From Adineta ricciae (taxonomy: Eukaryota > Rotifera > Eurotatoria > Adinetida > Adinetidae), in contig CAJNOJ010000080.1 in NCBI GenBank assembly GCA_905250025.1, positions 124,001 through 188,000 of the forward strand: DNA of 64,000 nt. Reading direction: 5' to 3'. A program made the translations under genes and the position numbers. Under the pieces are notes generated by a model. The model was not told the DNA's origin. It made no database searches and was given only the letters and a program-made list of their open reading frames with translations. This document shows, piece after piece, positions 36,244 to 64,000 of the stretch (position 1 is its first letter; every line of letters begins with the position of its first letter).

Positions 36244-37958
36244 ATGGCTGCGGTAAATGTATATCATACAAGTGTGACAACAGACAATCTTAGTAGAAAT
36301 GATATTCTACAATGGATTAATTCGGCTCTTGATGCCAATTTCGTCAAAATTGAAGATCTTTGTTCCGGTACAGATGAAAGTTCACATGCGTACTGGTAAA
36401 ACTTGCCATCGTTTGCATTTGTTTAGGTGCTGCATATTGTCAATTCATGGAAATGTTGTTTCCAGGTATGTTTAACTTATCTATTCATGTATCGATCATT
36501 TTTTCGAAAAAAAAACTTCTCTTCTAGGCTCGATAGGTGCTCGATCAAAACGTGTGAAATGGAATACAAAACTTGAACATGAATACATTAATAACTTTAA
36601 AGTGCTGCAAGAATATTTCAAAGCACTGTCTGTAGAAAAGGTAACTTTTAGTTTCATTCGATCGACACGTTTACATTTGCATATTACATGTCGCAGACAG
36701 AAAAATCGGATGAAGCACTCAGAGATTGAGCCTATGATGAATTCTATGTTTATTTACTCAGCGCGGAAGTCATGACTGCAGTGTAAAGTGTGATCTTTTT
36801 CTTTTCAGATTGTTCCCGTGGAGAAACTGGTCAAGGGAAAATTTCAGGACAACTTTGAATTTGTTCAATGGTTCAAAAAATTCTTTGATGCTAATTATAC
36901 CGATTCACAGGACTACGACCCGGTTGCTGCTCGTGATGGACAGTAAGTTAAATCTGGATTTGATCTCCTCTATAAAACGATCAATTATTCTTTGTTTTCA
37001 AAGGCCATTAGGTAGTGGTGGTAAAGCAGCCGGACCTGGCAGTAACTCTGGTATTCGAGCACCACCTGTGTCTCGAGCACCAGCATCGAAACCTGCTCCT
37101 CCACCGTCAAAACCAGTAACGACGAGTAAGTCGAAACGTATGAAGTTATCGAGTAAGTTTCATTTCTTTGTCTTCGCAGCAAAACCCGTCCAACAACACA
37201 CGCCGAAAACGGCTCCTGCTATTCATCGACCAACTGCTCCCTCCAATCATACTACAACAATTAATGACCATCATTCTCATCCTGGAGCGCACAGTAATGA
37301 AACAGCACGATTACAACAAGAAGTACGATAATTCAATTTGATCTTTTGTTTTCTATATGCGCATTTTGTTTCCTATAGATTGATAATTTACAAGAAATGA
37401 TTCAACAACATGCGACTCATATTGCTGGCTTAGAGAAAGAACGTGATTTCTATTATAATAAATTACGCGATGTGGAAACCATTTGTCAAGAACCTGATTT
37501 TGAAAGTTTACCACATACACAAAAGATTCTGGATATTCTCTATGCAACCGAGGTACGTAAATAATGATTTCGTCTCTTGGAACATTCATTATACAATATT
37601 AGCTTATATCGTACTAACAAGATCGATATTTTTAAGGAAGGCTTTGAGATTCCTGATGAAAACGATCAATATCATCATCATACCGAACAAGATTTTTGAT
37701 AAGGAGTCGGTGTGTTGTCTATTCCTGTTTGTTTCTTTGTTTGTTTGTTGACTGTGGTTATCTGTTGCTTTCAGTTGATTCTGTGCATGTCGAATAGACA
37801 GATCTTTTCCTTTCTATATATTTATTGAATTCTTTTTCTATTTCTAGGAAGGCTTTGTGCAACCTGAACAAGAGAACGAGCATGATGATTTCGATAATGA
37901 AAATATCAACAATGGTGCTGGTTCCGGTCTAACGGCTGCTGATGACGAAACATACTGA
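36244..37958 (+). CDS. MAPRE1: Microtubule plus-end tracking protein EB1
   Basis: Tracks growing microtubule ends and recruits partners through its EB homology domain and C-terminal acidic-aromatic tail. Exons 36244-36367, 36427-36465, 36528-36640, 36809-36942, 37004-37125, 37180-37322, 37379-37552 and 37848-37958 join in frame to 319 residues. Residues 1-135 are the calponin-homology domain ([35 protein letters not shown]). A Pro/Ala/Ser linker follows. The EB homology coiled coil starts [12 protein letters not shown] and continues through [14 protein letters not shown], ending LDILYATE. The last exon ends ...DDETY; vertebrate EB1 ends EEY, the CAP-Gly ligand. A second terminal exon lies at 37637-37699. 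The gene symbol is given for the family; it may be the single ancestor of the vertebrate MAPRE genes. AATAAA at 38221-38226. Confidence 0.95.
37637..37699 (+). CDS. MAPRE1: Alternative last exon of EB1
   Basis: After the shared donor at 37553, an acceptor TTTTTAAG precedes this exon, which reads [20 protein letters not shown] and stops. The exon at 37848 begins with the same ten bases (GAAGGCTTTG) after its own acceptor. Joining this one gives a 303-residue protein ending in -EQDF, again acidic plus aromatic. EGFEIPDE is closer to the vertebrate EB1 tail (EGFVIPDE) than the other exon is. No AATAAA lies between the two, so both forms probably share the downstream poly(A) site. Confidence 0.7.
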   Translation, partial: EGFEIPDENDQYHHHTEQDF

Positions 37959-38453
37959 AAGCGACATCAAGATAATTATTTCCATATTCCTCGGTTTTCT
38001 GCTTCTATTTCTTTTTTGCATTCACATCCGATTTGTTTTTCTTCCTCTTCTTCTTTAGTATAATTACACTGAAGTCTTTTAAGAAATTGTTTTGCGTGTG
38101 CGTGTGTATTTCCTTCTCGTTCTCTATGAAATAGATGTGCACATTTGCCTTCTACTCGACTATTTATATCTTGATATATACATGTGTGTGTGTTTGTGTG
38201 TAAATGATTACTAATACAATAATAAAAGAATGTGTTTATTCATTTCTTTTTGACAATTTTAAACGAGAAAGACTTGACTTTTTGTCTCTTGATGAAAATG
38301 ATTATTTAATCGATTTGATCAAGTGGGGAAGTTTCTCCTGAAGACATTGATTTGAAGTGTTTGAATTGTTCTATGTGAAGAATTGCATTCTTTTTTTCAA
38401 ATATTATACAAACAAAGAGAAAGAGTGAGAGAGAAAATGGATTCAATCGACAT
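37959..38453. other. Intergenic, convergent 3' ends
   Basis: EB1 and the membrane-protein gene converge here. AATAAA at 38221-38226 fits the EB1 transcript. TG-rich runs at 38095-38110 and 38180-38205 are typical downstream elements. Confidence 0.6.
38221..38226 (+). other. Poly(A) signal of EB1
   Basis: AATAAA followed by TG/T-rich sequence, about 260 bases after the stop of the distal terminal exon. It is the first such signal after either alternative exon. Confidence 0.7.
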
Positions 38454-40114
38454 TTACAGTTCATCATTGGGGAGACTTTGATGTGCTGCGGAAAATGTAT
38501 ATCGCGATGGTCGATGAGTATATTTCCGTCGTTTGTCATTGCTGGTCGACATGGTCGAACGATTTTGTGATCCCGAACGGCGTGAATGCGCTTTCCATAC
38601 TAAACTAAATCGACTGCTCAAACTCGTTCGGTCACTCCAACACGCACTACTCTTTCGACTATGCGCTATCGAAAGGTTATCATCGATGAATGGGATAGGT
38701 TCATTGTCAGTATCGAAGCGCTGTTTTATTGCACTTTCGATGGTACTATGGAAATACGACGGACGACTGTTGAAATAATGAGAACATGGCGCGGCCGTTG
38801 GCTGCTTTGTTGGAAGGAGGTTGGCTGTTGGTGCGGAAGTCGATGCCTGAGACGTATCTGATTCATTATAACATGTCGAAGAGATTTGTTCGTCTTCTTC
38901 AGTGGCTAATCGTAATGGAGATGAAATAATCAGACTGAAAGAAAGGCTCTCTTCGGAATGAGGAAACATGAAGTTATATTCGACTTTACCGATCCTTTTC
39001 CGGTTTTCGTTTTTGTACAGCTCCATTCATTCGTTCATTATGATGATTTGTTGAATAGAACCTAAACAATAGAAAGTTTCAATAGACCAAGATTTTCCTT
39101 TTCATATAGATCACCAACGTTTTCTTCGCTAAGATAAGAATCAGTATCAGCAAGACAAGAATTAAGACGAACAGAATCAGCAAACAAACAGCGTACAACC
39201 AAATTGGATCTACTGATGTATGTTGCAAAACATTCGATGGAAGGTGAATCTAAGAAACGAAAATGAATGACAAAAGTATCATTTCGTTCAATTATACTTG
39301 ATGTTTGATATCCTGATAGATATCTTGTTGATAACGTTTAAGTGCAAGTAAAAATTGATCGTTTGTTAGTGCTACTGTTTGACGATACGGATCTTTGATG
39401 AATATTGCAACAAATAAACGATGATCAGCTGATTCTTCTTCATAATTTTGCACGATAACATGATCAGCTCTAAACATTTCCGATCGGAATTTAATAGAAC
39501 AATGAAAAAAACTCCTTTTCTCAATCATACCGAATAAATTCTGTATCTTTGCTCAGACAAGTTGATTGGAATTTCAAGCAAAACTTACGCACGGCTTTCG
39601 CAATACTCTGGCGTAGATTCCGATAGATACGATTCTCAAATGTTTCCATTGTTGCATTTTCAATAATCAACGTCACACTACCGCGTAGTGCATACGGCCA
39701 AAATTGATTTCTTCGCGTGTTATTCATCGATGACGAAGATATCTGATCAAATATGTTCGCCTAGAAGTATTTATGAGGAAAGATTCATCAGATCATATAA
39801 CTGTTAAATACTCACACATGAATCAGTGCACGTTTGAGAAGTGTTCTTGTCGCACAAGTTTATGTTTGGTATAAAACAGTGCAGCAACGTGTTCTGTAAA
39901 TTGTGAAGATTTTTATTTGTTTTATGAGAAGTGTTCGTCGGAATCGATGCTAATTGACCTTTGTATCGTAATTGTATCGGCGTTTTAGTTAGTGAGTGTA
40001 ATTCAATTTGAATATGCAGACTCTTGATCGAGAAGCGCAAACCAATCAACGAGGAGATTTGTTTGAACTTAATCGAAGATAAATTTAATAGAAAATAGTC
40101 ATTATTTTCAGTGT
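38454..40114 (-). CDS. Single-pass membrane protein, unrecognised (5' exon not identified)
   Basis: I do not recognise the family. The exon at 40114 begins right after an acceptor and has no ATG, so at least one upstream exon, perhaps with the signal peptide, is missing from my model. The extracellular part has Cys pairs and N-glycosylation sites (NLSS, NTS, NATM) and a mixed alpha/beta stretch (RGSVTLIIENATMETFENRIYRNL), somewhat like an SEA-type fold. A strong membrane helix follows (WLYAVCLLILFVLILVLLILILILA) with a basic stop-transfer KK. The cytoplasmic tail of about 200 residues is Ser/Arg-rich with many possible phosphosites (SIAHSRKSS, RRSGSQNRSTMS). The arrangement (glycosylated ectodomain, one helix, polar tail) indicates a type I surface protein. 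Confidence 0.6.
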
Positions 40115-50275: not shown

Positions 50276-53200
50276 TTAATGCTGTTGACTAGTTGATGGA
50301 TCTGCACAATAGCAATCGTCGGAATGATGAGAAGAAGACGATGAATGCGAAGACATAGATGTGAGAGGCGAAGAAGTGACTCCTTCTTTAGGTAATGTTG
50401 ATCGAGGAGATTGATGATGACCTCCTAACGAACCGGGATGCGAGTGAGTTTTTTTCTTCGGTTGGCTAGTCGACAATTCTGTTTGACTAACGGATGGAGA
50501 CGATGAAACTGATGCGGATGATTGATGTCGAGAACGGACCGGATTGGCATTGACAAACGGAGGTAGAAATGGTAAATCCGTTGCCGATTGCGTCTGCGGT
50601 TGTTGTCGAAAACTAGCGAGGTCAGTTTCAGCTTGTAAGATCCGCTGTTGAGGATAGGATGAAATCGAATGTTGTTGAGAATATATCACAGAACGAGACG
50701 TTGAAGAAAACGAGGAAGAAGAAGATGAACTGGATGAAGGAGTTTTAATACGTCTTGTTGCTTGATCATGTGTAGGTGCGGATAAACGGCGTTTATCTTG
50801 ACTAGATGAGGTTGTTTGATGCTGACGAATATCTTCATCAGATGAAAATAGATTCCGTTCTTGGCTTTGTAGGTCTTCATGTGTGATTTCAACGAAGTCA
50901 TCATCAATCGAATGACGTTGTGATTTTTCGATAACAGTTGTTGCATCGGATTGCGACGAAATAGAATTAGTTAAATCACCTGCCATGTCGAGAATGTCAT
51001 TGAGAACATTTTGTACATCGTTATCAACAGATGAAAAATGCTTTTCGATAAACGATTCGACTTTGTTGTTGTTGTTCGCGTTTTCATTTGTTTCATGTTG
51101 TTGAATGAACGAATCAACCGATGAACGTATTTCGCGTGCTGCATCGATAACATTTGTTGATGAAGTATTCTTTAACAATTCCATTTCAATACGTTCGAAT
51201 TCCATTAATGAATCATCGGTGTTTGGTGTATTTGATGAATTATGTTCAGTTGAATACGGACGAAGAATATCACTTGTTGTTAAACTTAATGTACTAAGAG
51301 CAGGTTTGATCTCGTCTTGTCGTAGCTCAGGACTTTCATAAACGGTTTCCAGTGTTGTACCCGAGCGTAGATCGAACCCGGTATCAAGTGGGGGATATTC
51401 GCATTGATGTTGAAGAATATCAATTAAGTCTGGACTTTCGTGTTTATCAGATGAACTTGATGAAGAATTGGATGGTGTATCGGTTTTAATTTCCTTCGAG
51501 TTTGTCGATGGTGAACTATTCTTCACTAAAACGAATTCATCAGATACATCTCCGATGTCTCGTTCGCCAAAATCTAATGCAGAATCGTCTAACGAACGTG
51601 GTGTGTAACGATTTATCGGTGAGATATTTTCAATCAAATCTGTTTTAGTTGTTAACATCTCGATTGGACTACTCGATGGTTGAGGCTGTTCTTGTTTTGT
51701 ATAGAAGCTAAACGCTGACGTTGGCTTTTCGATAACTGTTGGTTTCTGTTCAAGTTGTTCAGCTTTCAATTGATCGAAAAATAACGTTGAAGATGGTGTA
51801 TATTGCTCAGGTACACGAATAATGATACAACTGTCTGAACTGAAACGTTGCAATGTACCATAGTCAAGCTCATCCGGACAAGCTTGCAGCTGTTGTTCAC
51901 TATGTGCGTGAATGAGCTTTGTTGTTGTAGTGGTGGTTGTTGCGGCTGCTGGTTCACTTGTTGGCAGCGATTGATTCAGACTTTGATCAGTGAATGGCGA
52001 GATTATGTCGGATTTATTGGTGTCATCGTCGCCAGCGAGAGTTTTTTCGATTAGGCGATCTAATGAACGTTCGAATTTGAGCTTGATTTGATCAATTAAT
52101 GTTTCTTTTTCTTGATAAATATCATCTAATTGTATATGAATAGTCGATTTAATGGAATCAAGTAACGAGGAATCGCGGTCGCTTTCACTCCCAGCATCAT
52201 AATCCGAATGAGACAAAGTTTTTGTTGCTGTTTGTATCGTTGGTGATCCTAGCGGTGGAGTTGATGCTAGTGGATAAGTTTGGTTTTCACCTAATTCTAA
52301 ATCTGTTTTCAATGTTGCAAGATTAGTACGAAGAATTTCCTCTTGAATGCTTTTGATTAACTGTTTTTCATTCGAATCACCATTTAGTGAATCTACACTT
52401 TCTTCTCGTTGAAAGTTTCCGCCGGTAAATCCACTGCTACCTGGTGGTAATCGCGGTGAACGTGGTGAAATATCATTGCTATCTAATTTGAATGAGACGC
52501 TTTTCGACGAAATATTTTCGGAGGGATTTCCAGTTGCATCATTCAAAAGTGAAAATCGTTGTTCATTCGAACGTTTTCGTCGTTGTGTGGTTTCTTGATT
52601 TCCACCGCTACTCTCTTCACCCTCACCCGAATATTTCTCTTCTCGAAGTTTTTCATTGGTTGCTGTACTCGAGAATTGTGATTGAATTTCATTCGATTGT
52701 TTTTCATCGGAACTCGAATCATCATAGCCAGGATTGATTGTTCCGCTTTCATCAGCATAATCATTATCATCAGACGTTAAGAAGTTTGGTGTTTCATCAT
52801 CGGCGGTTAAATATTGACTAGAATTCGATTGGGTCGGTGGTTGAAGACGTACTTTGTCATCATCAACTGTCGAATTGGTGCTGCGAACATCGACATATTC
52901 GCCACCGCTGGATGGTGATATTGCACTAAAGTATGTTCCCGTATCAGATTGAGAACCATGACGAACAATGACTGGTGGTGGTGGTGGTGATAGGGGTGAT
53001 GATGCTTTTGGAGATCGCTCAAGATTAAGAATGTCAGCATCTGTATATGAGTGATGGAGATTCTTTGTTGGCGTTGTTGTGGTCGATGATCGGGCTGAAT
53101 GATCTTCATCAGCAGATTGATCACGAGTATTCGAAGATTCATCAGCACTGTAGTGATCGTTAAAACCAAACGAACTTGTGTCGGTTGGTATTTGATTTTG

Positions 53201-56200
53201 TTTATGTTCGTCTTCACCCTCTTCACGAAGTCCGTCTTCTTCCTCTCCATCATCATCATCAGATGAAGTACCGTCGCCTAGTTGCTGATCACTTTTGTTG
53301 CTGTGAGACGAATCATCATGTTCACCAGTCATTTGAGCTACAACATCGGTTAATACTTGATTAACGTAATCAGACGTCAGAATATCGAATTCTTCTTCCG
53401 TCATTGTTTCATCAGCTTTTTCTTGCAATTGTTGTCCAGGTGCACTCAGTGCTAGCGGTCTTTGACAACTACTTGTTGGTTCAAATGTATCTAAAAATGC
53501 TGATGTTGGTATACTGCACGATTCAGAATGTTCAGGACTCGATTCTTTTTCCACAGCATCATCATATGGCGTTGAATGCCGTTGGTGTTGTTGATGTATG
53601 AATTCTAGTGAGTTGTCTTTCGAGATCGCCGGTAAAAATCCTTCCGAGACTTCATTGTTGGCCGCTATTAAACTATCACGTTTCGAACCGCCCGTTGTCA
53701 ATACTGTTTCGGATTGTGTACGATTTTGTGCATGTAAATGCGGTAAGGTTGTTTGATCGAGATTGTTGATATTATCTATTTCGTATAGTTCGGGACTACG
53801 AACGAGTTTGTTTTGTTCGTCATCGTGTAATTCATAGGCTGAATGAAAATGTTGTTGTGGTGATGATGTCAACGGTTCGTTTTCATCGTCCACAAGTTGT
53901 TTTTCAGTAAAATCAGAATTACTGTTCAATGAAGATGTTGAACGTTGCTTGCGACGATTCTCCATAACTTCCTGAACCATTTCTACTGGTTTAGCAACAA
54001 ATGCTTTGACACGATCAAAAAATCCAACTGCACTTGTTGATGGAGATGAACCTGGATTAAACTCGTTATTATCGTCATCGACATCTTTTCGAGTGGTTTC
54101 ACGGTAGATCTGTTGATTCTTCTGTGATTCATCGTATAAAATCTGTTGTTGGTCATCCATGTATTCATTCGACGGTGTTAATTCATCTTGACCGGTCAAA
54201 CACGATGCGGACAAGGAGTGACCATCGTACATGTGTAACGGTGTTGACGATGTACTGAAAAGACTGTTTTCACTTGCTGTACGACGCGCGTGAATAACTG
54301 GTAATTGACCGATGTCGATCTCATTGGATATTAATGGATATCGATCGGCTGATGGCTGGCGATCATTTGACTCATCGTCATCATAATATTTTTTCATCAT
54401 TTGACTCGGCGTTGGTTCACTTTGGTGCTGTTTCACGATGAAGTCATATGTTTCGTTTGGCGGTTGGACAGGAGTTTTTGGTGAAATAAGTTTTAATTCT
54501 TGTTCCGAATCGAGAGAATCAGATGACTGTTGTTTAAGAGAATCTTGGCTAATGATCATTTCTTCATTGATAGAGTCCGTGCTCATTTCCATTTCTTGTT
54601 GACTTTGTTGTTGTTGTTGTGAAGATTGATAAGTTTGCTTTTGATTTGATTCATTTGAAGTCGAAGGTTGCTGTTGTTGGGATTCGGATGAAGTTGTTTC
54701 TTGAGTAGTAGACGAAACTAATGGTTTATCACCTTTGTGATCGTGATCGTCGTCGTCGTCGTCATCGGAATCATGATGTTCTGATAATGATTTGTCATGG
54801 TCATCAGTGACTGATTGCCGTTTCGACTTCTTTTTACTTTCATTATCTTCGTCTTCATCCGATAGAAGTTGCTCTTCACGAACACTCTTTAAATAATGGT
54901 TCGAAGCTAATTCTGCTTCTTCATCACCAACTGTCGTATGAGAAACATTGTCTCTCCCATCTGCTTGATCAGCTTCTGTTTCATCTCGTTGATGCTGTTC
55001 ATCCATTAAATGTTCATAGCGTGACATCCGTCGAAGATAATCAAGTTGAGCAGCTAATTCACTCGATCGATCACCAGTGCTATCTTCATGAGAATGATCT
55101 AAGTCATCTGATATACTTGTTCCTGATGATTGAATGTGAGGTGCACGCCGTTGATCAGTAGAGAGTGCGGTAATCGATTTTTTTCTTATTTGTGGTATAT
55201 CCAAATGCTAAAGAGATCAATAGTGAAAAATGGAATTTCTCTGCTATTTTGCTCTTTTACTTACCTCGCCTTGAACGTTCACTCGCGCCTGTTGGATAAC
55301 ATCGATTATCATTTTCTGTAAACCTGGATGATCGTCTTGTTCATGCTGTAATTGTTTTTGCGCTTCATCAACATCGCTCATTGATGAGCATGTGACATGA
55401 ACAAATTCATTTTTCAATAATGGCGATCCTGGTGGACTCAAAGGACGTCGCTCTGTTTGATGAGATTCACCTGATTGCGAATCGTGACGATATTTAAGAA
55501 TATCACGCGACAATGAATCGACACTGGCTGATTGCAAGACCTCTTCGTCATGTTGTTCAGGAGCATCTGTTATTTTATCAGGCTGATCGACAATTTTGGT
55601 CGTTGATTCAGGCGAATGCAAATTGTCTTCGGTAGGTTGTAATTCGATTACCGGTGGAATGGTTACATCGTAATGATGAATTTCATCATTGTCGGACATT
55701 GATGATGATGCTGATGGTGACGACGAACGAATAATATCAACATTGTCGTTGATTTCGTGCTCAAATTTATGTAACTCTTGCATAAGGTCAGCAAGTTCAT
55801 GTGTTGATTTGGCAGTTGCTGCATCTGTTATGGATAAATATGGTTCACCGGTAATATTTTCAATCGATTTGTCTTTTTCTTCGTCATCTGATGTTAAATG
55901 TTCTTCTTCTTTCTCGACGTCAACCCGATCACTACCACTACTTGTCAGTTGACTTGGTTTTTCTTCTGTGATAGCACCGGGTACGTTCTTAACCAAAGTT
56001 GACCAATCAGTTAAGTCACTAATCGATACATCAGCACTGGTTGTCTCATCACGTTGCGACGAAGGTATTTCATCATCATATTTTGTGTAGACATTATCGA
56101 GTACATCGTTAACAATGCCTGTTGCTGTCTGATAGAGAGAATAATTTCTGTCTTGTTCGATAGTTTCGTTGACAGCTTCATCAAGAATTCGACTGACGAA

Positions 56201-59200
56201 TTGCTGTGATGTTTGTTCAAGAACTTTCTCATATTGATCATCTCGATCCGATTTGGAAAGAATATATTCTGTGTCAGGGGTAGATGTTTTAAACAGATTC
56301 TTATCTTGTTCGTCAGGAAGTGAAATATCAAGGTGTGTCGGTCGAAAATCATTTTCGTCTTCGTGTTCCAACTCTTCCTCGCCTTGATATGATGGAATTG
56401 TACGAGATATGACACTTGAATGTTGAACGTGGGAGATCAATGATGATTCAGGATTTTCATCGACTGGTGAGTCAAGTGCATATTTCGCTGGTCGATATCT
56501 GTCACCATAGATTTCTTCACGTTGGAAAGCTGATTGTGTCCATGGCTCTGGTCGTTTCAGTTGTTCATTTTCGACTTCATCTTCATCGGAACGGACGAAC
56601 GATTGCACGTTGGCAAAATGCTCATCGCTTATTTCTCGTTCGAAACTCTTGGCCGACTCCATGTGGAAAGGTTCATCTTGACTTGGAAACGATTCATATG
56701 GATATTGTTGTTTCGGTGATGTTTCAGTGGTATGACGATCTTCTAAGTCGTGCTCGTCAGGAGATTCAATAGAGGATTTCTTTTCGACGCTCGGACTACG
56801 TTCGACTTGATCTTCATTGAGTAGTCGTGGAAAGGAAAGAGCAACTTGTCCCGCACTTAACAATCTCGTGAAATCATTTGTTTCATCTTGATGAGTTTCC
56901 GTAATGCTATGATCAAATGTCTTATGGTCTTCGAGTTCTTGAGAACTGGCGAGAATGTCTTGATCTGATTGTTCTTTGCTTTCTTCATCACGACGCTCTT
57001 CTTCAGATTCACTATCTGCGCGTGATTTATTACTCACTTTGTCAATGCTTAAGCGTCGTGCAAATTCTTGTTCAGTTGCTTCTTCCTCGGTCTTGACACT
57101 CGATGCTTTTGATGATAACGCTTGCGCTGGTTCAGCACTGAATTGGTCAGTTGAACTTCGTCTTTGTTCAGCTGAAGAGAGAAGTTCTTCGCCATCTTGC
57201 GATGTAGTTGGTGCAAAGTGTTTTGATTCAATTATCGGAGATGCTTCTTCAACTACTAGATGGTCAGTGCTGTGTTTATGTTTGGACTGATACTGGTCTC
57301 CTTCTTCTACATTCGAGATCTGGGATGCATGAATAACTTCTTTTCGAAGTTCGCCGTCATCTTCGTGTGATGATTGAGTGAAGGATTCATGTGCTATCGA
57401 TTTTTCTTTCTCCAATTTGTGCACATCTTCCGTTTCAGATTTGACTTCTTCAGAGATGAATTCATCTGGATATTGATCTTCGTCATGTTCAGTTGCTGGT
57501 GGGGATCGAGTATCGATTCTTTCCGAACTTGGGTAGCTGATAGGTTTATAATCGTGTTCAATTCCGCTTTCATACTTTTCAGTTTTATTAGGAGAAGTAG
57601 CGAAAGTTTGTGGAATAGTTTCAATAGTTGGCGAAGATTTCGTGATGATTTCTTCGGTACTCTCTTTGCGTCCAAACGAAGGCTGTTCAGCTTCATGAGA
57701 TGACATTGCAACGATGTCATGCACTCTCACCTTTTGATCAGATTTATCTTGATTATCTGACGATTCACCGGTGGATTTACGTCGAGGTACATGCGATTGA
57801 TCATCATGTCTTTGTTCAAAACTATCTGCGCGATTTTCGGCAGTTGTATGAGAAGGTTCGACATTAAAGTCTTGTGACTCTCGGTCTTCTTCGAATGATG
57901 ATGAAGGTGCAGATGCAACAATAAATTTCACATCGCTCATTTTGTCATCTTTGTGATCAATTGCACCAACAGTAGATGCATGTCCTTCAACTATTGGATG
58001 ACTGTCAGCAGGCACTTGCTCAACGCTCGATTGCTTTTCGTATCGAGTTTGATCTTCTTTAGTTTCCATTTCGGTATCAGATAATGGTAATGATTCAGTG
58101 TTGATGCGATGTTCACTTAATTGTCGTTGTGTTTCGTGTTCTTCGTCTTCTGTAGATTTGTGCGAATCTCTTTTGATAGGCTGGACAGTTTGGAGAATCT
58201 CTTCTTTTTCATCTTCATGGGATGTTTTCATGATAACGTCATTATCGTCGTCGTCGTCATCGGCAACGAAATGTTCTTCTCCAATTATCTGTGAACTTTG
58301 CAGCGACGATTGATCTGCGACTTCAGATTTTTCCTCTCCTGCACTTTGTGTGCTTGGATAACGTTCATAGAAATCTTTATGTTGTTCTACCTTTGGCAAT
58401 GATTCCATGGTAATTTGGTCTGAGCTGACTTTTCTTTCAGGTTGATATTTTTCTTCCTCATGTTCAACTGATCGATGAGTATCAACAGCTGTATGTTCTG
58501 GTTTCAAGACTTGAATGTCATGTTTATCTTCGGATGATGTTGGAGATTCAGCATGTGTTTGTTCAGTAATCGAATGTTGTTGATATTCACATTGATGTTC
58601 ATGGTCGTCTTCACTTGATCGACGTGATTCTCTGTGAACAGTTTCTAAACTTGTTGGCCGTTCTGATACATACTCTTCTTCAATAAGTGATTGTTTCGAA
58701 CTGACTGATTTTTCGAATTGATCTTCTTCATCTTCATGCTCACTGAACTGCGGAGATTTCACATCTGTTCTTGTCAGTGTTGCACTTACTGGACTAATCA
58801 CAGTTTCTTTATCGATCGAGAATTGTTCATGTTGAAATTCTTTCTCTTCGATCATCGGAGAAGAGTCAGCGTTAATTCTTTCTACGTGATGTTGTTGCTC
58901 TGTTTGAAGTTCGTCCACTCCGGATTCTTGATGACTGATTTCAGACTTCTGTTCAGATTCGTGATCTTCTTCATATACAATACTTCTTTCCGATATGACT
59001 GGAGACTGTTCGAAAGCAGTTTCTTGCTCTTGTTGGTGTTCCTTGTCAATAGTCGATTGAAAAGGTTGAACAACAGTTTTATCGGTACTAGGTTGTCGTT
59101 CGAAATGAGGTTCTTCAATTTGTTCTTCGTGTTCACTGGATTGAAGAGATGAAGAGAGAACTTTTTCTACACTTGGTGTTCGTACTAGCTGTTCTTCTTT

Positions 59201-62200
59201 CGTATGTTCGACGTGAAACATTGGTTGAACATCTGTTTCGTCAACGTATCTTTTTTGTTCGTCATAATTTTCTTCTTCTTCTTCGTGTTCACTATAACGT
59301 GGAGATTCGGAGCGAGGTCCTTCAATACTTGGTGCATGCAATAACTGCTCTTCTGTTTGTTCATCTTCTGCATGAGTAACGTGAGATGACTGTGTAGACA
59401 CGGTTCGATCCAAACTGCGTTGTCGTTCCAGGCGGTTTTCTTTGTTTTTGTCTTCTTCCGATTCACTTTCCACACTGCGGTGTTCTTCTTCATGTTCACT
59501 GAATTGATGAGATTCAGAGAGAGACTTCTCACTACTTGGTGTTTGCGCTAACTGTTTTTTCTGTTCGTCTTCTACGTGTGTGGTATGAGATGACGGTTCG
59601 GTAACGATTTCATCGATGCTGGGTTGACGCTCAAGCTGGTGTTCTTCTTCTACTCGTTCTTCGTATTCACTGGACTGGCGAGATGCGGAACGCGGTTCTT
59701 CTACACTTGGCGTTCGTAGAAGTTCTTCTTTGTGTTTCTCGTCCACATGTATAAAATCGGCTGATGATGGAATAACAGTTTTATCGATGCTTGATTGTCG
59801 TTCGAAGCGATGTTCTTCTTTTTCATCGTGCTCTTCACGCTCCTCGTCTTCGTCGGCTTCGAAAGATTGTAAGTGAGGTTGTTCTACACTTGGTGTTCGT
59901 AGTAATTCCTGTTTATAGTCGTCTTCTACATGTGTGAAACCAGTTACAACACTTTTCTCGTCACGGAGTTGTTGCTCAAAGTGGTGTTCTCCTTGGTATT
60001 CTTTGTGTTCACTGCGTTGAGGAGATTCAGAACGATGTTGTTCTACGATTGATGTTTTTGATAGCTCTTGTTTGTGTTCATCTGCCACTTGGGCGAAATC
60101 AGCTGACGGAGAAACTACACTTTTATCGATGCTGGCTTGTCGCTCAAGGCGAAGCTCTTCGTCATGTTCACTGGATTGAATAGATGCCAAGCGCGGTTTT
60201 TCAACACTTGGTGTTCGCACTAGTTGTTGTTCCTGTTCGTCTTCCACATGCGTGATGTCGGATTGTGGTTGACACTCGAGCTGATGTTCTACTTCTACTT
60301 CGTCATGTTCACTAGATTGACGAGATACAGATCGCGGTTGTTCTACGCTTGGTGTCCGTGGTAATTCTTGCCTACGTTCCTCTTCTACATGTGTAGATTC
60401 AGCTGATGGAGATAGAACAGCGTTATCGACACTTGTTTGTCGTTCGATATGATGTTCATTTTCGTGCTGCTCATGCTCGCTAGAATGAATAGATGCAGAA
60501 CGAGACTTGTCGATACTTGGTGTCCGTATTAACTGTTGTTCGTGTGTCTCTTCTATATGTTCAGCTTGCGATGATAGTTGGATATTAGTTTCATCGGCAA
60601 CTTCTCGTTGTTTGACGTGAGACTCTTTCTCGTGTTCACTGGATTGAGAGGATTCAGAATGAAGCTGCTCCACGCTTGGTGTTCGTACTAATTGATGTTC
60701 ATATGCCTCGTCTGTGTGTGTGATCTGAGACACTGTTTCAATAACAGATTTCTCAATACTAGGTTGACGTTCAAAACGATGTTGTTGTTGTTGTTCTTCT
60801 TCTTCTGGTTCTTCATGTTCACTAACGTGAGACGGTTGAGAGCGAGTCTTCTCCGTACTGGGCGTACGAACCAGTTCCATCTTATGTTCATCTTGTTGAT
60901 GGGTAAATTGGAATGTTGGCTGGCCAGCCATTTCATTGACACTTGATTGTTGATGGTCTTCTTCGTCATGTGGCAAATCTAATGACGGTGAAACACGACT
61001 TTCGTGGACGTTGCGTTGTTGTTGTCGATCGAGATGATCTCCTTGTTCCTCATGCTCATCGAATGGTGGAGAAGGAGACCGAAGTTTCTCACTACTTGGT
61101 GTTCTTGCTAGTTCATGCTCATGTTCGATTTCTGTGTGCGGAAAGTCAGACACTGGTGAAATAGAAGTTTGGAAGTTAGATCGTTGTTCAAAATGTTCTT
61201 TTTCTTCTGATTCACTGATATAAGGAGATTCTTGATGAAGTTTTTCGACACTTGGTGTTCGCGCTAATCGTTGTTCATGTTCATCTTGTCGATAGGTGAA
61301 GTCAGATGATGGATGAACAACTGTATTATCGACGTTAGATTGCTGTTCAAGGTGTTTTTCCTCTTCTTCTTCGTGTTCACTGAATCGGTGTGAGCTAGAG
61401 CGAGATTTTTCAGAGCTTGGTGTTCGTGTCAATTGTTGTTCGTATGTCGCTTCTGCATGTGTATCATGAGAGAGTGATTGAATCACATTTTCGTGTAGAA
61501 GTTTTTCTTGTTCGTAATAATGCTCTTCATGTTGATCTTCTACTTTTGATTCAGTTTGCATAGTTGACTGTTCGTGGTCGCTGAGTCGCTGTGATTGAAA
61601 ACGAGGTTCTTCAACACTTGGAGTTCGCACTAGTTCATGTTTATCTCCTTCATGTTCGACTACATTCAAAGGCGTAACTGATATTTGTTCAATCATTTGC
61701 TTTTGTTCTGGAAAATGCTGATCTGTTTGCTCGCCATCGTCGTGCTCACTTTCTCGTGAAGATTCAATAGCATGTTCGTCGTAGTGGAATGATTCACTTT
61801 CGTGTTGAGCTGCGACTGGACTTTCCTCGGTGCTAAGCCGCCTTTCTTTTTCATACATATGACTTTGGATGTCTTGAGATGATTCAAGTACATCCTCTTC
61901 ATGTTCGCTGGGTCGTGATGATGTTGTACTAACTTTTCTTGAAATTGATTTCTCATCAATTTCAACATTTTTGTCAACCGGAACTTCTTCAGATTTCATT
62001 TTATCTTCAACTTGATGATCATCTTCTTCGTGTTCACTGGGTTGAGGAGATTCGGTGTGAGCTCTTTCCGAGCTTCGTCTTTGTTCAAGCTTATGATCAT
62101 CTTCGATATCACGTCTTTCTTGTTCAAGTGTTTCACCAGGTATAATCACAGTTCCTTTATCACTGGAAAATTGTTCAGCTTGATGACCCTTATCGTCAAT

Positions 62201-64000
62201 TAGTGAAGATCTTAGGAAAGCTTGGTCAACGTTAATCTGTTGTTGTGATGAATAATTTGGTTCTTCATGTTTCTCATCTTCATCTTCGCTATGTTGAGTT
62301 GATCCAGTGATAATTTGTTGTACACTTGGCTTGCGCTCAGATCTCACTTCATCTACTGCGACCTTTTCAGAGCTTAGTTCTGACTGCAACTTGTGTTGAT
62401 CTTGTACATCGGGCCCCGCTTCATGTTGATCAGCTGAAGTTTCTTCCTGTTCAACATCTTGCGGTGTTCCAATATAAAATTTGCCTGATTGTTGATCTTG
62501 TTCTTTGTCGACAGTGATGTCATCCGAAATTAATTTTTCATGTGTTTGGTCGGGAGTACGAATCGATGATTCATGTTCAGCTTCGATTGTTGACGAAGGT
62601 TCGAAGATTTTATCTGTACTCCAAGTTCGTTCAATGTGCGATTGTTCATTTTCATCTCGGTGCTCGTAATCATGTGACACATCTTCTATTGTTTCATCTT
62701 CAATATCTTCAGTCGATTGTTTTAACTCCATTTCACTGGTAGTAGACTGTTGTTGAAGTGTTGTGGTCGGTGGAAATTCTTCACTAAATCTTCGTTCGGG
62801 TCGATACTGTTCGCCATAGACTTCTTTTCTTTGGTTCGATGATTGTATCCAATCTTGAGCGTGCGATCGAATTTCATGTGTAATTTTTTCCAATTCACCT
62901 GTGGGCTCTTCGATCAATTGTGATTCTTCTTGTGGCCAACGTTCAGTCTCTTGTCGAGTTAAGATCGTTCGATGTATAACAATAGGTATTTCGGCACTGA
63001 ATGGAGAGATGGTATCGCGTTCTTCGATTTGAATGGCTGATGATGATGATAACGGAAAATTTTCGATTTCATGCACGATTTCGTATGAAGTTGCAGGCGG
63101 ATGACGTTGTTCAGTTGTAATAAACGATTCCGCTAAAACTTCTTCATCTTCTCTCACTGATTGTTCTTCGATTTTCGTCGGTTTTTTTGTCCACGAAGCA
63201 GCAAGCATAAGATCACTCATAATGTCTCGAAGATTATCAATTGATGATGGTGGTGATGGTGATCTTAACTGTCGTTCAGCATGTATCGATGGTGTACGTT
63301 CGACAAATAGTGAGCGACGTGAGTCGCCTTCATAGAAAACATCACCCGATACCAGCGGACTTTCCGGTATGAGCGGTTTTTCATGTTCACTCGTATCATT
63401 GTCTTTGTTCGCTTTGTGATAGAATGAACGATGGATATCACCTTCATAGAAACTATCTGCACTAATTCGCGCTTCTTCCGGTATGAGATGAGTGGTATGT
63501 GTTAATGAAGTTTTCTTTTCTCGAGGAGGTTTATCTCCTTCGAAAAAGACGTCGCGTGTAATGACAGGATCTTCAGGAATGAGATGAGATTGCGATTGCC
63601 GAGGTGACAATAATCGGCCATCAGGTCCACGATGAAAATATTCAGCCATTTGTTCAGGTGTCCAATCGTTTTCTGCTGATACTTTCGATTCCTGTTCAAC
63701 AATATCAGTTCTAGTCGGTTGCAAATCCTCGATTTTACTTGATTTGATATCATTGATAATTCGACGTAACTCGTTGACATTTTGTTCGAATAATTCAATT
63801 AAACTATAATCTTCTTGATGAACGTTATTCTGTAAATTTTCGTTGATAGTTTGAAATAAATTTTCTAATTCATCTAATTCGTATTCAATGCGTAATTCAT
63901 CAGTTTTGTTCAACTGAATATCCGACATGAGTGCTTTCAAATCATGAATTTTCGTAAGAGTATCTTGGAAGTTAGCTGCGGTAAACTGATTGTTCTTTAA
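50276..64000 (-). CDS. Giant intrinsically disordered repeat protein, C-terminal 4,555 residues
   Basis: Two huge exons (64000-55265 and 55207-50276) flank a 57-base canonical intron; both junctions are in phase 0. The frame is open at the window edge, so the start lies outside. Composition is dominated by Glu, Ser, Gln, His and Asp. The first 80 residues look like helical, spectrin-like coiled coil (ELRIEYELDELENLFQTINENL). Then come a triplicated LIPE...FYEGD module, about 15 tandem copies of an RTPSVE/SSEHEE unit, diverged acidic copies, and in the second exon Ser/Gln/Asp-rich disorder, including an Asp run and a Ser run, with one amphipathic helix (FFDRVKAFVAKPVEMVQEVMENRRKQR). It ends CYCADPSTSQQH. 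I do not recognise it. Giant neuronal ankyrin or MAP1-type insert exons look similar in composition, but no diagnostic domain is in view. Confidence 0.85.
59110..61650 (-). repeat. Tandem array of about 15 coding repeats of ~174 bp
   Basis: On the plus strand the motif ACTTGGTGTTCG or a close variant recurs at about 61612, 61417, 61250, 61098, 60860, 60674, 60510, 60348, 60200, 60045, 59888, 59702, 59535, 59326 and 59170, a mean spacing of about 174 bases. Each unit encodes RTPSVE, then a Ser-rich stretch, SSEHEE, an acidic run, and usually RQPSIDK. Copies are diverged at the DNA level but keep these motifs. Confidence 0.85.
63310..63600 (-). repeat. Triplicated LIPE-x-FYEGD module
   Basis: Three successive units in the giant protein share a pattern: LIPEDPVITRDVFFEGD, LIPEEARISADSFYEGD and LIPESPLVSGDVFYEGD. 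The last two are followed by a basic RS(F/L). Spacing is roughly 110-120 bases. Confidence 0.85.

Follow-up and report, generated by a model that had tools for sequence, protein, structure and literature searches.

Two predicted alternative tail exons in an EB1 gene of the rotifer Adineta ricciae and their possible role in partner choice

EB1 travels on growing microtubule ends. EB proteins act as a hub for many partners at the microtubule plus end, which are bound through a pocket for SxIP motifs and through a C-terminal ligand for CAP-Gly domains. The window analysed here is the whole stretch of 64,000 nucleotides taken from contig CAJNOJ010000080.1 of A. ricciae, and its forward strand carries an EB1 gene for which the splice model joins seven constitutive exons in frame (36244-37552), followed by two alternative tail exons, here called T1 and T2 (Table 1). 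Membership of the EB family is indicated at both ends of the protein. Both the window protein (E 1.3e-11) and a form of the related locus L030 that contains a second version of exon 3, exon 3B (E 2.3e-13), score above cut-off for the CH domain (PF00307); the EBH motif (PF03271) is found in the window protein with an E of 2.2e-16, likewise above cut-off. The form with exon 3A from a sister locus matches structures of the human EB1 CH domain, with a best E of 4.9e-63. The predicted protein thus resembles EB1 and EB3 (MAPRE1 and MAPRE3), since it has the CH domain, the EBH motif and a tail starting with EGF that are found in the metazoan EB family.

The 130-Mb genome harbours three EB1 loci, namely the window copy (contig C80) and two sister loci, L030 and L031. 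A whole-protein search of the genome found no fourth locus, the best match elsewhere having an E of 0.76. A telomere pattern, tried as a marker of bdelloid identity, gave 12 and 26 matches where its reversed control gave 14 and 30, and so has no value for that purpose. Loci L002 and L003 are shorter versions of L030 and L031, and the L002 sequence is the same as in L030. The two sisters are 95.3% identical over 3.1 kb, and the window copy is separated from L030 by a synonymous divergence of about 1.5. On the 3' side of the window gene, positions 38607-38766 are conserved in both sisters (77.5 and 78.8% over 160 bases); this stretch perhaps belongs to an adjacent gene, which would be compatible with an ancient duplication of a whole block.

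Table 1. Features of the EB1 gene in the window.
Feature	Position	Strand	Basis or remark
EB1 exon 1, ATG and start of CH domain	36244..36367	+	in-frame splice model; Pfam CH
EB1 exon 2	36427..36465	+	splice model
EB1 exon 3A, CH domain; sole exon-3 version found in the window copy	36528..36640	+	
Intron in which sister loci hold exon 3B; no remnant detected in the window	36641..36808	+	
EB1 exon 4, end of CH domain	36809..36942	+	splice model
EB1 exon 5, linker	37004..37125	+	splice model
EB1 exon 6, linker	37180..37322	+	splice model
EB1 exon 7 (E7), encoding coiled coil and EBH domain; GT at 37553 is the donor for both tails	37379..37552	+	Pfam PF03271, E 5.7e-15
T1, alternative tail, weak acceptor	37637..37699	+	splice model, acceptor matrix, conservation
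T2, alternative tail, strong acceptor	37848..37958	+	splice model, acceptor matrix
AATAAA, first canonical polyA signal past T2	38221..38226	+	variant AATACA at 38213

The original prediction had placed two coding tails with different ends behind the one donor of exon 7, and this picture was borne out. Both exons start behind an AG, open with GAAGGCTTTG and remain in frame (phase 0) to stops of their own, T1 ending in -EQDF and T2 in -DDETY. Both are also kept in both sister loci, so that T1 and T2 occur in the same order, phase and place in all three EB1 loci, with both acceptor AGs and both frames conserved. The start of T1 was compared at the nucleotide level. Positions 37634-37669 of the window, a segment that takes in the last three bases of the intron and 33 bases at the start of T1, match L002 at 31 of 36 bases (86.1%); this is also the top 36-base match across the whole interval from E7 to T2, and 60 shuffles reached no more than 24/36. 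Across six other intron intervals, some of them barely longer than 36 bases (two further ones were too short), the best 36-base match between window and sister did not exceed 21/36, and the conservation at the start of T1 is therefore no accident. Within the T1 exon alone, the best 36-base match between window and sister is 28/36. Among the residues aligned between the window copy and L030, 10 of 15 are identical in T1 and 16 of 36 in T2. At its start T1 encodes EGFEIPDE (window) or EGFHIPDE (sisters), where human EB1 has EGFVIPDE.

Conservation of this kind could also be left by an exon that is no longer productive. T1 might be a relic of an older tail or an element that regulates splicing, with T2 as the sole tail in use. 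Of the two tails T1 is the nearer to the human segment, matching it at seven of eight residues by eye (EGFEIPDE) where T2 matches at five (EGFVQPEQ), and the end of T1 is not conserved. However, all three copies keep T1 open up to an in-frame stop despite the high silent divergence, and a relic would have decayed over such a distance; we therefore regard this explanation as improbable. Because T1 and T2 are both kept in the diverged sister loci, both tails are very likely coding sequence that has been retained since the copies separated.

The ends of the two tails have fared differently. T1 ends in -EQDF in the window copy and in -DDP or -EDP in L030 and L031, so a terminal Phe is not conserved in T1, whereas T2 ends in -TY in all three copies. 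An acidic tail with a C-terminal aromatic residue, similar to EEY/F, is therefore present in T2 of all three loci and in T1 of the window copy only, and the aromatic end is conserved in T2 alone. The dN/dS of each tail is about 0.48, far above the 0.1 of the gene, and the variable last residues of T1 look as they might in a part under loose selection.

The two exons had also been described as duplicated-looking. The shared EGF start stands, but the resemblance beyond the EGF codons proved marginal by shuffling. With these codons included, the similarity of T1 and T2 had a shuffle P of 0.02 in the window, 0.16 in L030 and 0.04 in L031; without them, the values were 0.077, 0.1245 and 0.028, respectively. 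EGF is the EB family's own sequence at the start of the tail, as in human EB1, and the ten-base match of GAAGGCTTTG, perfect between T1 and T2 in the window, falls to 7/10 in the sister copies. The motif at the start of both exons mostly reflects the EGF that the whole family has where the EBH domain ends, and the origin of T1 and T2 by exon duplication is likely but not proven.

Another pair of alternative exons lies in the CH domain of the sister loci. Both have a second version of exon 3, exon 3B (L030 4598-4704; L031 4601-4707), which is identical in protein between them with one silent change. Exon 3A is 113 bases long, in the window as well, and exon 3B of the sisters is 107 bases long. 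Either one singly keeps the frame, and with these lengths the inclusion of both or of neither would shift it, which makes the two mutually exclusive by reading frame. With gaps placed by hand, 3A and 3B share 21 of 35 residues, they share 21/35 and 23/35, respectively, with the human exon, and 3A of the window agrees with 3A of the sister at 32/37. The two versions are thus about as far apart as either is from the human exon, while 3A is close between copies, so the duplication seems to predate the split of the EB1 copies. As homologous, adjacent exons of which one is usable without frameshift, 3A and 3B resemble tandem duplicated exon substitution (PMC9741552). T1 and T2 depart from this pattern of mutually exclusive homologous exons, as they are terminal, share only an EGFxxP start and are of likely but unproven homology. 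No remnant of 3B was detected in the window intron that corresponds to its place (the best local alignment scored 14, with a shuffle P of 0.85), and tblastn of 3B against the window gave a significant E-value only at exon 3A; 3B appears to have vanished completely from the window copy. In the sisters, 3A or 3B, which lie in the microtubule-binding domain, combined with T1 or T2 might form a two-module splice kit that yields four EB1 forms per gene, with the window copy fixed on 3A and left with the tail choice only. We put this forward tentatively, with somewhat less than even confidence. Such a kit would differ from the vertebrate arrangement, in which EB1, EB2 and EB3 are encoded by separate genes, in that four predicted forms would come from one gene.

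The alternative exons also tend to accumulate fewer silent changes. Between L030 and L031, exons 3A, 3B, T1 and T2 have synonymous changes at 3 of 79 sites and the constitutive exons at 25 of 161 (Fisher P 0.009); between the window and L030, the two tails have 14/30 and the rest, which includes exon 3A, 120/181 (P 0.043), the exon grouping having been chosen in this test after the counts were seen. Exon 3A itself is not low in synonymous change between the window and L030 (0.64). The deficit fits splicing signals inside the alternative exons, although gene conversion could also have lowered silent change between the sisters.

How a choice between the tails would be made depends on the signals around them. 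In all three copies, none of the eight polyA hexamers tested occurs from the T1 stop to T2, and the best donor from inside T1 to T2 scores only 3.2 on a matrix of 23 donors from the same gene models, which themselves range from 5.4 to 10.8. On these grounds, separate terminal exons with polyA sites of their own, and T1 as a cassette exon, were both rejected. The choice is thus most simply one between two acceptors. These are unequal in the window. The original prediction of two good acceptors applies to T2 but not to T1. Their scores are 12.9 and 0.6, respectively, with a matrix built from 20 constitutive acceptors of the same EB1 genes, which themselves score 4.8 to 15.0, partly by construction. 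Of the 6306 AGs on the two strands of the window, 17% score at least 0.6. In both sister loci the T1 acceptor scores 6.0, so that its strength, unlike its AG, is not conserved.

These scores raise the possibility that T1 of the window is an ageing exon, with an acceptor so weakened that T2 is almost always taken, T1 being active mainly in the sisters and the work being split among copies. The absence of exon 3B from the window copy points the same way, as one simplification has probably already happened there. On the other hand, the window T1 is fully open and retains EGFxIPDExDQ, the matrix draws on 20 sites, all taken from these EB1 genes, and where splicing is regulated the upstream acceptor is commonly weak. 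Decay of the window T1 is in our view unlikely, although it deserves more weight than the unproductive exon considered above.

The reading that we favour, and on which we stand evenly balanced, is that the last intron of EB1 has two competing 3' splice sites, the choice of which would set the partners of the protein, SxIP proteins for T1 and CAP-Gly proteins for T2. Use of the T1 acceptor would give a last exon that starts at 37637 and extends as far as the shared polyA site, with its stop at 37699 and T2 as part of the 3' untranslated region; since this stop would sit in the last exon, nonsense-mediated decay would not be expected. Use of the T2 acceptor would remove T1 together with the intron. 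That both tails are spliced in life, and that the T1 message reaches the shared polyA site, we infer from the arrangement of these signals. The resulting proteins would differ in two respects. T1 would provide a short tail that retains the F-x-I-P segment (FEIP in the window, FHIP in the sisters), which would lock SxIP partners. T2 would have F-x-Q-P instead (FVQP or FAQP), followed by an acidic linker of greater length and by the conserved ending -[DE]TY (-DETY or -EDTY) suited to CAP-Gly partners. Splicing would thereby shift the balance of EB1 towards SxIP proteins when T1 is used, and towards CAP-Gly proteins, CLIP-170 and dynactin among them, when T2 is used.

Human EB1 holds a bound SxIP ligand in the EBH pocket by means of its FVIP segment, which closes over the ligand as a lock (PMC12695022). 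The same source emphasises that the C-terminus of the EBH domain is flexible and accommodates a variety of ligands, which tempers the weakening of the SxIP lock that the Gln of FxQP may bring. The proposed preference of T1 for SxIP partners turns on this one residue. The window T1 could itself bind CAP-Gly domains through -EQDF, so T1 would not be blind to CAP-Gly in every copy. As for T2, the acidic-Thr-aromatic end resembles the -ETF of CLIP-170 and of Bim1, the EB protein of yeast, where it is the end recognised by CAP-Gly domains (PMC11782662; for the native ETF end of CLIP-170, PMC8664194; for background on CAP-Gly and EEY/F, PMC5552355). T2 differs from both in having Tyr in place of Phe and in that the end would be supplied by an alternative exon. 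Compared with EB1 and EB3, the acidic-aromatic end is shared by T2 and by the window T1. The differences are that one gene offers two tails, that T2 ends in -TY and not in -EEY, that Gln replaces the Ile of FVIP in T2, and that the sister T1 has no aromatic end. Potential partners are at hand, as CAP-Gly domains gave 26 exon matches in the genome. A search for the zinc-knuckle family of CLIP-170 gave no match, but the controls matched nothing either, so this is no evidence of absence.

A different purpose had originally been proposed for the pair, namely a switch between a Tyr tail that can be detyrosinated and a Phe tail that cannot. The window tails do end in Phe (T1) and Tyr (T2), and the genome contains vasohibin-like genes (seven matches) and at least two alpha-tubulin loci with a downstream frame ending in -EGEEY (2 of 30 tubulin-like loci scanned), which makes a tyrosination cycle on tubulin plausible. 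Arce, in the title of a 1978 paper, reportedly suggests that Phe at the tubulin end can also be released. For EB1 itself the literature is divided. Detyrosinated EB1 was reported in HUVEC and tumour cells by Rovini and colleagues (PMC3672205), and the opposite result was obtained in mouse fibroblasts and brain, where EB1 was fully tyrosinated and even a chimera of EB1 with the alpha-tubulin end was less than 4% detyrosinated (PMC3303835). The penultimate residue of T2 is Thr, where tubulin has Glu. Above all, T1 of the sisters ends in Pro, so a Phe/Tyr pair cannot be the general purpose of the two tails. The switch has accordingly been set aside as the main function and is, as the purpose of the pair, highly improbable.

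Among the titles and abstract openings listed for open-access papers on EB1 splice forms, EB1 tails or rotifer EB1, none reports alternative EB1 tails or an EB1 from a rotifer. If the choice between two competing acceptors operates as proposed, an exon pair that changes the pocket loop and the CAP-Gly ligand together would allow the EB hub to be retuned by splicing, and the natural T1/T2 pair would separate the SxIP and CAP-Gly classes of partner without engineered mutants. With their second CH exon, the sister copies would add a natural experiment on how end tracking is governed by the CH domain.

Elsewhere in the window, the minus strand of positions 50276-64000 contains two very long open frames, of 1643 and at least 2918 amino acids. 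Their product would be one giant protein or two, acidic and repetitive, in which diverged repeats of the type RTPSVEKxRSxSxxxSEHEE recur. These frames are the probable cause of the strong AT skew between 52 and 64 kb.
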